A stretch of 64,000 nucleotides of DNA from contig NZ_JBGCCH010000016.1 in NCBI RefSeq assembly GCF_041261205.1, positions 62,001-126,000 of the forward strand, read 5' to 3'. Shown here one piece after another: positions 1 to 43,295 of this stretch. Made by a program: the position numbers and the translations under genes. This DNA comes from Catenulispora sp. MAP5-51 (GTDB lineage: Bacteria; Actinomycetota; Actinomycetes; Streptomycetales; Catenulisporaceae). The notes beneath the pieces are model-generated. The model was not told where the DNA came from and did no database searches. It worked only from the letters and a program-made list of their open reading frames with translations. Within the stretch, counting starts at the first letter, position 1. Every line of letters begins with the position of its first letter.

Positions 1-2451
1 CGACCGCACGCTCCTCCGGCTGGTCCTTACGCAACGCCGCGACCGCGACAGCGCCCTCGACATCCACCAGACCGGTCAGCGTCGCCTGCGGCCCGAGCTC
101 GACGAACCGGGTGACCCCGCCTTCCGCCAGAGCACTGACATCGTCGGCGAACCGCACCGCCTGCCGTACGTGACCGACCCAGTACTCGGGGTCGCACACG
201 TTCGAGAGCAAAGGGATCTGCGGTGTGTTGTAGGTCAGGCTCTCGGCGACCTTGCGGAAGTCGGCCAGCATCGGATCCATCAGCGCCGAATGGAAGGCAT
301 GCGAGACCGTCAGCTGCTTGGTCCGCGCGAAACCGGCCGCCACCTTCGCCACAGCCTCCGCCTCACCGGACACCACCACCGAAGCCGGCCCGTTGACCGC
401 AGCGACATCCACGCCCGGCAGCAGCGCTGCACGCACCTCGGCCTCGGTCGCGGCGATCGAGATCATGGCGCCGCCGGTCGGCAGCGCCTGCATCAGGCGG
501 CCGCGTGCTTCGACCAGGGTGCAGGCGTCCTCCAGCGACCACACGCCGGCCACATACGCCGCGGCGAGTTCACCGATCGAGTGACCGGCCAGGAAGTCCG
601 GCCGCACACCCCAGGACTCGAACAGCCGGAACAACGCCACCTCGAACGCGAACAGCGCGCACTGGGTGAAAGCAGTCTGGTTCAGGAGCTCCGGCTCGGA
701 CCACATGACCTCTCTGAGGGGATGGTCGAAGCCCGCGGACACCTCATCGAGCGCCGAGGCGAACACCGGGAAAGCCTTGTAGAGCTCGGCACCCATGCCG
801 AGCCTCTGCGAACCCTGGCCGGAGAACAAGAAAGCGGTGCGGCCAGCAGAGGCGACACCGGTCACCATCGGCGCCGACAGCAGCTCATCCCGGTCGGCAC
901 CAACCACAACAGCACGGTGCTCGAACTGCGTGCGAGTCAGCGCCAAAGCCCGGCCGACAGCAGCCGCATCGAGCTCCGACGCGCCCTCGGCCCAAGCCAG
1001 CAACCGCTCAACCTGCGCGCTCAACGCCTCCGGAGAACGACCAGAAACCGGCCATACGGTGACCGACGTTCGCTGCTCACCATCAAGAGAAGTTGTTGGG
1101 GCGTACTCCCCCGCCTCCTCAATGATCACATGAGCATTCGTCCCGCTGATCCCGAAAGACGAGACCCCCGCCCGCCGCGCCCGCTCCCCCGCCGGCCACG
1201 CGACCGCCTCCGTCAGCAGCCGTACCGCGCCGGCCGTCCAGTCCACGTGCGGCGAGGGCTCGTCCACGTGCAGGGTGCGGGGCAGCTCAGCATGCTGCAT
1301 CGCCAGCACCATCTTGATGATTCCGGCCACGCCCGCGGCGGACTGCGCGTGCCCGAAGTTCGACTTCAGCGACCCCAGCCACAGCGGCCGGTCCGCCGGG
1401 CGGTCGCCGCCGTAGGTCTCCAGCAGGGCCTGGGCCTCGATCGGGTCGCCGAGCGTGGTGCCGGTGCCGTGGCCCTCGACCACGTCCACGTCGGCGGCCG
1501 TCAGCTCGGCGTTGGCCAGGGCGGCGCGGATCACCCGCTGCTGGGCCGGGCCGTTGGGGGCGGTCAGGCCGCTGGAGGCGCCGTCCTGGTTCACCGCGCT
1601 GCCGCGGACCAGGGCCAGGATGCGGCGGCCGTTGCGCACCGCGTCCGACAGCCGCTCGACCACGAGCACGCCGGCGCCCTCTGCCCACGCGGTGCCGTCG
1701 GCGGCTGCGGCGAAAGACTTGCACCGGCCGTCCGGCGACAGGCCGCGCTGCTCGCTGAAGTCGACGAACGTCCCGGGCGTGCCCATCACGGCGACCCCGC
1801 CGACCAGCGCCAGCGAGCACTCCCCGCGCCGCAGCGCCTGGCCCGCCAGGTGCAGCCCGACCAACGAGGAGGAGCACGCCGTGTCCACCGACAGCGACGG
1901 GCCCTCAAGCCCCAGCGTGTACGAGACCCGGCCCGAGACCACGCTCCCGATACACGTGCTGCCGGGATAGTCGTGGTACATCAGCCCGGCGAAGACCCCG
2001 GTGGCGCTGCCGGCGAGCGTCGCCGGGACGATCCCGGCCCGCTCCAGCGCCTCCCAGCTGACCTCCAGCAGCAGGCGCTGCTGCGGGTCCATGGTCAGCG
2101 CCTCGCGGGGGGAGATCCCGAAGAACTCGGCGTCGAAACCGGCCGCGTCGTCGAGGAAACCGCCCTCGTTGACATAGCTCGTGCCCTGACGTTCCCCGCT
2201 GGGGTCGTACACCCGGGTCAGATCCCAGCCCCGGTCGGCCGGGAACGGCCCGACCGCGTCGGTGCCCTCGGCGACCAGGCGCCACAGGTCCCGCGGCTCG
2301 GTCACGCCGCCGGGGTAGCGGCAGGCCATGCCGACGATGGCCAGCGGCTCGGTGGCGCGCTGCTCGACGTCGCGCAGCTGCCGGCGCGCCTCCCGCAGGT
2401 CGGTGGTGGCGCGTTTCAGATAGCTGAGAAGCTTTTCCTCGCCGTTGTCCG

Positions 2452-2455: not shown

Positions 2456-13806
<11,351 letters not shown>

Positions 13807-41153: not shown

Positions 41154-41384
41154 CTACGCCACGCTCGGCGAAGCCTCCCCGATCCGCGCGCGCTCGGCCA
41201 CCGCCTCCCGCGAGTCGTACCGCAGCAACGAGGGCACCAGCGCGGCCAACAGCCCTATGCCGGCCAGGCACGCCAGTCCGCCGGACACCACCGACACCCG
41301 CGGCGTGAACGCCGTCGCCACGGCACCGGACTCCAGATCGCCCAGCCGCTGCTCGGGCCGCGCGGCCCAGACGTGCGGTAAGGC
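41154..41384 (-). pseudogene. C-terminal remnant of an MFS exporter (MFS_3/EntS-like)
   Basis: An open stretch of 76 codons ending in TAG, closed upstream by an in-frame TGA at 41385-41387. The frame reads RPEQRLGDLESGAVATAF, then SVVSGGLACLAGIGLLAALV and PSLLRYDSREAVAE. The E-R/L-GD-E-G pattern followed by a last membrane helix and a short basic/acidic tail is what the end of MFS_3/EntS-type exporters looks like. The other roughly 330 residues are absent, and there is no start codon context, so this is a decayed gene. It lies downstream, in the same direction, of the leader ORF and hairpin below. Confidence 0.7.
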
Positions 41385-41583
41385 TCACCGCCGCATGCTA
41401 TCCATGACCACGGGGCGCCCGGCGCGGCGGTCCACAGACAGCACCGCCGGCGGAAAAACAGCGGCTCGCAGGCCTTGATCTGTCGGGACCGCACACAGCG
41501 TCGTCTGACGCCGCGAACGACCTCGCCAGACACCGGGGACGTCCGGTGAGCCTGCGAGCCGGGTAACTGTTGGAGATTAGCCC

Positions 41584-41638
41584 GCCGCCCCGGTCCTGCC
41601 GGGTGAGGCCTTCGGCCTCTTTTCGCGGGCGGGGCGGC
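41584..41638 (-). promoter_or_regulatory. Attenuator-like double hairpin after the leader ORF
   Basis: Outer stem gccgcccc/ggggcggc (41584-41591 with 41631-41638) begins inside the leader stop codon. Within it, 41605-41619 forms a stem with a C(UUCG)G-type loop as read on the plus strand, where it is followed by TTTT (41620-41623). It may thus be a terminator for plus-strand transcription and a stop-codon-linked structure for the minus strand. Confidence 0.5.
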
Positions 41639-41697
41639 TAGCTGACAGCCACCTCACGCGTCCTGGTACAACTCAACTCAGGATCACCTCCTTTCAT
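41638..41697 (-). CDS. 19-codon leader peptide with internal perfect anti-anti-Shine-Dalgarno sequence
   Basis: Reads MKGGDPELSCTRTREVAVS. Codons 2-6 contain GAAAGGAGGTGATCC, the full complement of the 16S rRNA 3' end, placed after and not before the ATG. A promoter TTGCAT-18-TATCGT (41737-41732 and 41713-41708) would start transcription only a few bases before the ATG, so the mRNA would be nearly leaderless. The stop codon lies at the base of a hairpin, and about 250 bases on is the broken MFS gene. I infer a ribosome-dependent attenuator whose target gene has been lost. No homology search was possible. Confidence 0.5.
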   Translation of the reverse strand: MKGGDPELSCTRTREVAVS

Positions 41698-41707
41698 GTG
41701 TGAGATC

Positions 41708-41737
41708 ACGATAGGCAGGCCTGCCGCGCGAATGCAA
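41708..41737 (-). promoter_or_regulatory. Sigma-70-type promoter of the leader ORF
   Basis: TTGCAT and TATCGT separated by 18 bases on the minus strand; the -10 ends 11 bases before the leader ATG. Confidence 0.5.
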
Positions 41738-42044: not shown

Positions 42045-43295
42045 ATGTCCACCGCCACACTCGAACGTCCCCCGTCCACCACTGGGGCCTCGGCCCCCGG
42101 CAATGTCACCGCCCCCGCCCCTGTCACCGTCACGGGCATCCTCGACCGGCAGGACCAGCACGGCTTCCTGCGGACCAACGGCTACCTGCCCGGCCCCGCA
42201 GACCTCTACATCCCGCCGGCGATGATCCGGCGCTACGGCCTGCGCCCCGGCGACCTGATCACCGGCACCGCCGCCGAACCCTCCGGCTCCGAGAACCAGG
42301 CGCCCCGTCGGAGGTCCGCCAAGTCGGACCCGGCGAGCAAGGCCCGGCAGCTGGACCGGATCGACACCGTCAACGGCGTACCCGCGACCCCCGGCCTGAC
42401 GGCCCGCCCGCACTTCGCCGCGATGACCCCCCTGTACCCCCAGGAGCGCCTGCGCCTGGAGTCCGACCCCCGGCAGTTGCTCACCAGGGCCATCGACCTG
42501 GTCGCCCCGATCGGCAAGGGCCAGCGCGGCCTCATCGTCGCCCCGCCCAAGACCGGCAAGACCACGCTGCTGCAGGCCATCGCCAAGGCCGTCACGCAGA
42601 ACCACCCCGAGTGCCACCTCATGGTCGTGCTGCTCGACGAGCGCCCCGAAGAGGTCACCGACATGCACCGCTCGGTCGCCGGCGAGGTCATCGCCTCCAC
42701 CTTCGACCGCCCGGTCACAGAACACATCGCCGTCGCGGACCTGGCCGTCGAACGCGCCAAGCGCCTGGCGGAACAGGGCCAGGACGTCGTCATCCTCCTG
42801 GACTCCATCACCCGCCTGTGCCGCGCCCACAACAACAACGCCAAGTCCAGCGGCCGCACCCTGTCCGGCGGCGTCGACGCCTCCTCGGTGGCCGCCCCGA
42901 AGCAGCTCTTCGGCGCCGCCCGCAACCTCGAGGAGGGCGGCTCGATCACCATCCTGGCGACCGCCCTGGTCGACACCGGCTCCCGCGCCGACGACTACTA
43001 CTTCGAAGAGCTGAAGAGCACCGGCAACATGGAACTGCGCCTGGACCGCACCCTGGCCGACCGCCGCGTCTTCCCCGCCATCGATATCACCGGCTCGAGC
43101 ACCCGCCGCGAGGAACTGCTGACGACGCCCGAGGAACTGGACGCCATGTGGCGGCTGCGTCGGGCACTGCGCGGGCAGGGCGGCGGGCAGGGCGGCCCGC
43201 ACGGTACCGAGGTGCTGCTGGAGCGGCTGAAGCAGACCGCGAGCAACAGCGAGTTCGTGAAGCGGGTACGGCAGACGACCGTTTCAGGGTCTTGA
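42045..43295 (+). CDS. rho: Transcription termination factor Rho, short form
   Basis: A 416-residue hexameric RNA helicase. An S1/cold-shock-like RNA-binding domain (TGILDRQDQHGFLRTNGYLP, about 30-80) precedes the ATPase core: Walker A APPKTGKTT (about 165), LLDERPEEVTDM, Walker B VVILLDSITRL, and SGGVDASSVAAPKQLFGAARN. Actinomycete Rho proteins usually carry a long N-terminal insertion and reach 600-700 residues; this one is E. coli sized and its Q/R-loop region departs from the usual HRPKRFFGAARN. It is therefore likely a second, divergent Rho. GAAAGGA precedes ATG 42045. The leader 41800-42044 follows an extended -10 (TGCTAACCT at 41792-41800) and could house autoregulation. No other gene is seen in 41698-42044. 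Confidence 0.92.
   Translation: MSTATLERPPSTTGASAPGNVTAPAPVTVTGILDRQDQHGFLRTNGYLPGPADLYIPPAMIRRYGLRPGDLITGTAAEPSGSENQAPRRRSAKSDPASKARQLDRIDTVNGVPATPGLTARPHFAAMTPLYPQERLRLESDPRQLLTRAIDLVAPIGKGQRGLIVAPPKTGKTTLLQAIAKAVTQNHPECHLMVVLLDERPEEVTDMHRSVAGEVIASTFDRPVTEHIAVADLAVERAKRLAEQGQDVVILLDSITRLCRAHNNNAKSSGRTLSGGVDASSVAAPKQLFGAARNLEEGGSITILATALVDTGSRADDYYFEELKSTGNMELRLDRTLADRRVFPAIDITGSSTRREELLTTPEELDAMWRLRRALRGQGGGQGGPHGTEVLLERLKQTASNSEFVKRVRQTTVSGS

Follow-up and report, generated by a model that had tools for sequence, protein, structure and literature searches.

Small mRNAs with an extended Shine-Dalgarno (SD) sequence are the closest known counterparts, in kind, of the RNA analysed here. The rreB and rreR small mRNAs of Bradyrhizobiaceae and the Rhodobacter lineage, reportedly described by Hahn and colleagues in RNA Biol in 2017, are said to bind 30S subunits, to be weakly translated, and to be stabilised by replacement of the start codon with a stop codon. 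Both are reported to be stand-alone small transcripts, with 16–17 nt complementary to the tail of 16S rRNA and open reading frames (ORFs) of 14 and 18 codons. A different arrangement is that of the ribosome-mediated attenuators of resistance genes (the whiB7 type and ABCF leaders), in which a short ORF lies beside hairpins and a terminator.

Within the window, the whole 64,000-nucleotide stretch of DNA under analysis, the minus strand carries a full-length match to Ms_IGR-5 (Rfam RF02471), which Rfam types as an sRNA gene. Both the family and the extended-SD small mRNAs as a kind are thus already named. The passages naming Ms_IGR-5 in PMC8079986 back it by RNA-seq in Streptomyces lividans, those in PMC8780764 match it to a unit transcribed as an sRNA in S. 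avermitilis, and those in PMC4974804 describe ribosome-protected reads on it in Mycobacterium abscessus and M. smegmatis, cautioning that footprints arise on non-coding RNAs too. The mini-ORF and the second SD-like site described below go unmentioned in the literature passages that name the family; the name itself was not found in PMC9569102. No description of the mini-ORF, of that second site, of helix P0 or of the frame change was found in the literature searched, outside which most subscription papers lay. As judged from sequence comparison, Ms_IGR-5 is likely to be a stand-alone small mRNA in which the act of translation is conserved rather than the peptide made. The following features, listed from the 5' side of the RNA, are needed for the argument.

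41732..41737, minus strand: −35-like hexamer TTGCAT, from sequence
41708..41713, minus strand: −10-like hexamer TATCGT, from sequence, 18 nt from the −35-like box
41456..41701, minus strand: small RNA, full-length match to Rfam RF02471 Ms_IGR-5 (89.1 bits, E 2e-18)
41698..41700, minus strand: 5' strand of helix P0, partner 41655-41657, from covariation
41638..41697, minus strand: 19-codon ORF of the initial annotation, from ATG 41697, in the frame of the mini-ORF; ATG before SD1 in 9/97 loci
41681..41695, minus strand: SD1, complementary over 15 nt to the tail of 16S rRNA, GAAAGGAGGTGATCC, exact and unique in the assembly
41679..41683, minus strand: 5' strand of helix P1 (end of SD1), partner 41661-41665, with the start codon in the loop
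41638..41676, minus strand: conserved 12-codon mini-ORF TTG...TAG (MSCTRTREVAVS), from start and stop conservation
41650..41655, minus strand: SD2, GAGGTG within the ORF, separated by 9 nt from the stop, from sequence and enrichment over shuffles
41645..41653, minus strand: 5' strand of helix P2 (ORF end), partner 41562-41570, from pair counts
41579..41643, minus strand: stem P3, containing the stop codon, from RNAalifold and pair counts
41454..41561, minus strand: terminator-like, covarying stem P4 (41549-41561 with 41462-41474) and T tract (41454-41458)
41157..41388, minus strand: MFS_3 pseudogene with internal deletion, outside the RNA (the 14 initial codons are left, plus 64 codons of the C-terminal part)

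The match by Infernal covered positions 1–184 of the 184-position Rfam model and scored far above the gathering score of 45 bits. It was the only copy found by this model in the genome. The Rfam model also matched in 59 of 60 relatives, the exception being a genome that is 77% complete, and in 70 of 396 sampled genomes of the phylum. We constructed a covariance model of the 5' module, R1, which matched in 141 of the 396 genomes, with a single copy in 139 of these; under strict filters no R1 match was detected in the other 255, complete genomes of the same class included. The 5' module of the window copy scored 75.5 bits with R1, whose alignment had included that copy. An origin from phages or plasmids was rejected, as blastn against both collections gave no match. 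When viral contigs were scanned by pattern, 51 stretches came up, for which R1 reached E values of 0.008–0.02 in three and returned nothing up to E 0.1 in 48, an unconvincing result.

Conservation was measured on a main set of 97 loci, the window copy and 96 others, found with models that include the scored columns. For the phylum, the set took G000 and 49 others of the 70 genomes matching the Rfam model, 20 lower scorers being left out; for the relatives, it took all 59 matching genomes, a weak second match in G408 being dropped. Alignment A1 comprised 68 of these loci. With R1, 71 genomes were gained over the Rfam search, and a second set of 60 loci was fetched from these, 11 being left; this set is new but not unbiased, because R1 contains the same columns as the features counted.

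SD1 occurs as a single exact copy in the 10.9-Mb assembly, and the lone copy with one mismatch sits in a stretch without Rfam match. The 16S tail was not found in this assembly. In the eight relatives searched, GAAAGGAGGTGATCC was present 3–7 times per genome, and all 12 further copies inspected (G399, G407, G193 and G433) were 16S tails ending GGATCACCTCCTTTCT, its exact complement. The initial annotation had noted an SD complementary to the 16S end in association with the ORF, and this was borne out by the tails of these four relatives. On the assumption of one tail sequence for all species, as read in four, SD1 pairs at 15/15 bases in 91 and at 14/15 in six of the 97 loci. An exact complement is present in only 20 loci. 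Of 155 substitutions, 149 keep a wobble pair, being A>G or C>T, and the other six comprise four C>G and two A>T. The predicted duplex with a 20-nt tail reaches −30.0 kcal/mol for the window copy and −31.8 on average over the 97 loci, versus −11.6 for AAGGAGGU. When SD1 was taken as the best-pairing site per stretch, the second set gave 15/15 in 59 loci and 14/15 in one. The same annotation had located the perfect SD inside the coding part; the conserved ORF begins 3' of SD1, however, at TTG 41676. Since this ORF starts after SD1, the latter is an upstream and slightly far ribosome-binding site: its distance to the start is 10–12 nt in 81/97 loci, and the usual optimum is shorter.

The mini-ORF was recognised by the conservation of its two ends. 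An in-frame ATG, GTG or TTG lies 8–13 nt after AGGAGG in 84/97 loci, versus two and one in the other two frames. These three starts are absent in 13 loci, in which near-cognates are found (CTG 6, ATC 3, ATT 3, ACG 1); with near-cognates included, an in-frame start is present in 97/97, versus 16 and 10 in the other frames. Measured from the first G of GAGGTG, the stop lies exactly 15 nt downstream in 96 loci and one codon further on in the 97th, and its identity at the fixed place varies among TAG (77), TGA (13) and TAA (6). The SD1–SD2 distance varies modulo 3 (54, 25 and 18 loci), and start and stop are nonetheless in frame. Counted to the fixed stop, the length is 11–15 codons, with 12 codons in 74/97; in our model of the RNA the range is put at 10–15 codons. 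In the second set, a mini-ORF follows SD1 in all 60 loci. The 19-codon ORF proposed before is in frame with the conserved one, but its ATG exists in just 9/97 loci, and a leaderless start at this ATG was rejected on that ground.

Near the end of this ORF is SD2. For 81 distinct ORFs, delimited independently of SD2, the strongest anti-SD duplex ending 6–9 nt before the stop averaged −10.4 kcal/mol versus −3.5 for 300 shuffles, which, like the other shuffle tests here, ignore the relatedness of sequences. In the second set, the stop is 11 nt from the end of GAGG in 52/60 loci (L293 among them, by its in-frame TTG ORF) and 10 nt from it in eight. An SD that holds the ribosome before the stop had been suggested for this RNA; an SD so placed does exist, but it is SD2 and not the one then named. 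The GGUG of SD2 is also within P2, and therefore the conservation of SD2 may be partly structural. In eight of the 60 loci (L325, L328, L329, L331, L334, L336–L338), the codons over SD2 give Gly-Gly and not Glu-Val, within SGGG-like peptides; in these divergent genomes the start, SD2 and the stop are all kept despite the frame change. It is this difference in frame that argues most strongly against conservation of the peptide. Altogether, the comparison suggests that SD2, start and stop are preserved and the peptide is not.

Three helices, P0, P1 and P2, cover the ORF and pack its beginning and its end. P0 joins the 5' end to codon 7, with the strand combinations CACG/CGTG, CACA/TGTG, CTTC/GAAG, CGTA/TACG and CCAG/CTGG; in alignment A1 (68 sequences) 94.6% of its cells are paired, and both-sided changes occur at three of four pairs. 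The Rfam consensus, in contrast, leaves the first 13 positions unpaired. In the second set, the four bases before AGG find a partner 5' of SD1 at 4-of-4 positions in 58 loci and 3-of-4 in two, counted as the best of eight offsets. P1 joins the end of SD1 to GGAC, with 74.7% of cells paired and the outermost pair failing in 39/68. Against 500 shuffles, P0 and P1 together exceeded all for cells paired (81.8 versus 71.3%), both-sided cells (69 versus 23) and covariation score (0.307 versus 0.139), and did not exceed them for pairs with both-sided change (6 versus 6.4) or pair types (23 versus 21), the structure having been drawn from the same sequences that were used to test it. In P2, the end of the ORF (GGUGRCUGN) pairs with NCAGYCACC, which lies directly 5' of the terminator stem. 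Among 51 of the 97 loci (from one class, with every second Streptomyces), each of its nine pairs was found in 47–51 sequences, or 49/49 at the outermost; its covariation is chiefly at the inner end, and P2 is less clear in other classes. RNAfold of the window copy formed P1 and P2, with P0 absent, and paired four SD1-core bases with bases located at and just after the T tract, where the folded stretch has its 3' end. The double hairpin, at whose base the stop codon had been placed, consists of stem P3, which holds the stop, and the terminator-like P4 with its T tract. The promoter TTGCAT-18-TATCGT proposed earlier is present as promoter-like boxes (41737-41708), and a TANNNT box lies 20–23 nt 5' of AGGAGG in 86/97 loci. 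A consensus scan, at its thresholds, reported no promoter and no minus-strand terminator at this site.

The initial annotation had read the locus as the attenuator of a drug exporter that lost its output gene while the sensor remained. An antibiotic-responsive attenuator of an MFS exporter, left behind after deletion of the exporter, would account for a mini-ORF, a stop in a hairpin, a terminator-like stem, and MFS_3 sequence downstream in the window, G403 and G062. These three are, however, the only codirectional MFS_3 genes among the 97 loci, the one in the window being a fragment. By a census with 16 probe proteins, between which and the RNA genes matching no probe may intervene, the nearest matching downstream gene was convergent in 63/97 loci and codirectional in 10, and in 24 it was not identified. 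The convergent genes were pdxH (31), citrate synthase (11), nitrobindin-like (10), ligA (5), HNH (4) and SIS (2), and the codirectional ones MFS (3), hydrolase-like c30 (3), peroxiredoxin-like (2) and chitinase-like (2), names other than MFS_3 and Rho being read from translations and not by domain search. Neighbours vary even inside the genus, with a chitinase-like gene in G397 and G404 and others in G401 and G399. Unlike whiB7-type and ABCF attenuators, the 97 loci share no conserved downstream gene in cis; P4, moreover, is a covarying stem. Conservation of the spacing to exporters, on which the attenuator reading had been staked, was not found, though the short ORF is conserved. As the downstream neighbours vary both over the 97 loci and within the genus, nothing points to a lost output gene. 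Only the last 76 codons of the exporter were said to persist; the MFS gene is indeed broken, but its beginning persists too. Positions 41348-41157 match residues 370–433 of a 433-aa MFS_3 protein of the same-genus genome G403, and the first 14 codons are kept at 41388-41347 in another frame than this C-terminal stretch, which by itself matched no Pfam family. Because both ends are kept, the remnant reflects an internal deletion and not a surviving tail alone. G403 has the full MFS_3 protein (PF05977, E 5e-39) at the same place, next to the same Rho-like neighbour. Most simply, the MFS gene is a local neighbour that decayed. The drug-exporter story is appealing and probably wrong, and in the form of an antibiotic-responsive relic it is hardly credible. 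From the earlier description it holds good that the RNA is intact and structured, and that its design centres on the binding of ribosomes.

That the locus encodes a functional micropeptide of about 12 residues is very unlikely. Start, stop and length are conserved, as is Thr-x-Glu-Val in the 12-codon ORFs, most of which show RT-x-EV, but these residues fall on P1, P0 and SD2, and the conserved residues in general coincide with P0, P1, SD2 or P2. At codons 2, 3, 4 and 7, in the loop, 31 of 40 distinct single-base differences are nonsynonymous (0.78 versus a neutral expectation of 0.75). The share is below neutral at codons 5–6 (1/3 versus 0.67) and codons 8–12 (5/9 versus 0.70), with few events in each; RNA pairing or peptide constraint would both give this deficit. 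A functional peptide was rejected on the neutral drift of the loop codons together with the frame change at SD2 in 8/60 loci. The RNA might instead be a non-coding antisense of the 16S tail, which titrates or matures 30S subunits with the ORF being incidental. The 15-nt complementarity kept through wobbles and a duplex of about −30 kcal/mol agree with such a role, but the in-frame start in every locus once near-cognates are counted, the three kinds of stop and SD2 are left unexplained by it, and we regard it as improbable. An ordinary trans-acting base-pairing sRNA, with the P2 3' strand CAGYCACC or a loop as its seed and ribosome binding serving just for stabilisation, would fit a stand-alone unit, such as the sRNA unit matched to the family in the S. 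avermitilis passages (PMC8780764). SD1, SD2 and the ORF limits are, however, the most conserved parts of the RNA, and this alternative is highly doubtful.

We thus return to the small mRNA with a conserved act of translation. The RNA has the look of a device for clamping ribosomes onto a frame of 12 codons, and the peptide seems immaterial. The 16S tail of a 30S subunit would bind the SD1 core, pairing would spread into the last bases of SD1, and P1 would open to free the start codon. After reading the short frame, the terminating ribosome would be held at the stop by SD2; such holding is proposed because the spacing of SD2 suits a ribosome whose P site is occupied by the last sense codon, in which position SD2 would face the anti-SD with the stop in the A site. 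Ribosome traffic may then set the opening of P2 and the stability of the RNA. Under the reading we favour, the RNA would report or buffer ribosome or initiation capacity through its own stability and fold, the candidate outputs being RNA decay, pairing of the freed P2 strand with targets, or ribosome retention. If so, an RNA annotated as non-coding and present in 141 of 396 sampled genomes of the phylum appears to be a translated mini-mRNA, and it offers a setting, provided by nature, for testing if ribosomes are held when an SD pairs close to a stop codon.

By its long 16S-tail complement, tiny ORF and stand-alone nature, the window RNA fits the rreB/rreR kind, although those RNAs differ from Ms_IGR-5 in phylum, ORF and fold. 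The CC2171 family (Rfam RF01867, a Caulobacter sRNA) has GAAAGGAGGUGAUCC near the 5' end of its consensus. Its match to the window was weak and local (19.8 bits, far below the gathering score of 75); it had no match in the whole genome, and among 14 control genomes Caulobacter vibrioides alone was matched. Prompted by this weak match, a pattern scan of alphaproteobacteria detected at least 120 stretches with GAAAGGAGGTGATCCAGTGT; in 119 of the 120 listed, a GTG ORF of 14–33 codons follows. Among the stretches listed, the ORF has 14 codons in 14, 18 in 37, 20–26 in 67 and 33 in one. ORF length alone proves nothing here, because the GTG is fixed by the pattern itself and stops are similarly near in the other two frames, at median distances of 20 and 29 codons. 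The sharp 14- and 18-codon classes nevertheless speak for a real frame in these loci; presumably they correspond to rreB and rreR. Ms_IGR-5 loci differ from this GTG-fixed set in that they start with ATG, TTG, GTG or near-cognates, and in that G-U wobbles are common in their SD1. An SD-like site before the stop was detected in the 18-codon class (−9.5 versus −4.1 in shuffles) and, more weakly, in the 20–26 class (−4.7 versus −2.1); the 14-codon class gave −4.0 versus −1.3, this being the best window in 0/9 distinct ORFs.

When homology to the alphaproteobacterial RNAs was tried with R1, 30 of the 120 loci listed gave weak scores only, the best being 20.4 bits (E 0.006), and the folds differ. 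Ms_IGR-5 would thus be closest in kind, among known systems, to rreB/rreR, a likeness claimed for the way of working and not for descent, by which an actinobacterial family becomes linked to this poorly understood kind. More tentatively, and as a possibility that we hold to be less than even, Ms_IGR-5 and rreB/rreR could be a dual-SD ribosome trap that was invented twice, perhaps independently. In such a trap, an SD of excessive length would catch the 30S subunit through strand displacement, another SD, some 10 nt ahead of the stop, would retain the ribosome as it terminates, and the RNA would sense or buffer translation capacity, the peptide being without role.

Some observations were made in passing. 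The alphaproteobacterial ORFs form at least three classes, and some end in EVRAA or hold SEVAAG, like actinobacterial frames (L125, L147, L158, L200 and others). In L210, also alphaproteobacterial, the same perfect SD lies ahead of a 104-codon ORF. Divergently upstream of the RNA in the window, as also in G403, is the gene for a short Rho-like protein of 416 aa (42045-43295) with Rho_RNA_bind and ATP-synt_ab domains, which may be a second Rho. The antisense RNA family ASpks (Rfam RF01782) was matched at window positions 1364-1438, 7555-7629 and 12718-12792; at a guess, these matches probably represent conserved coding sequence of polyketide synthases.
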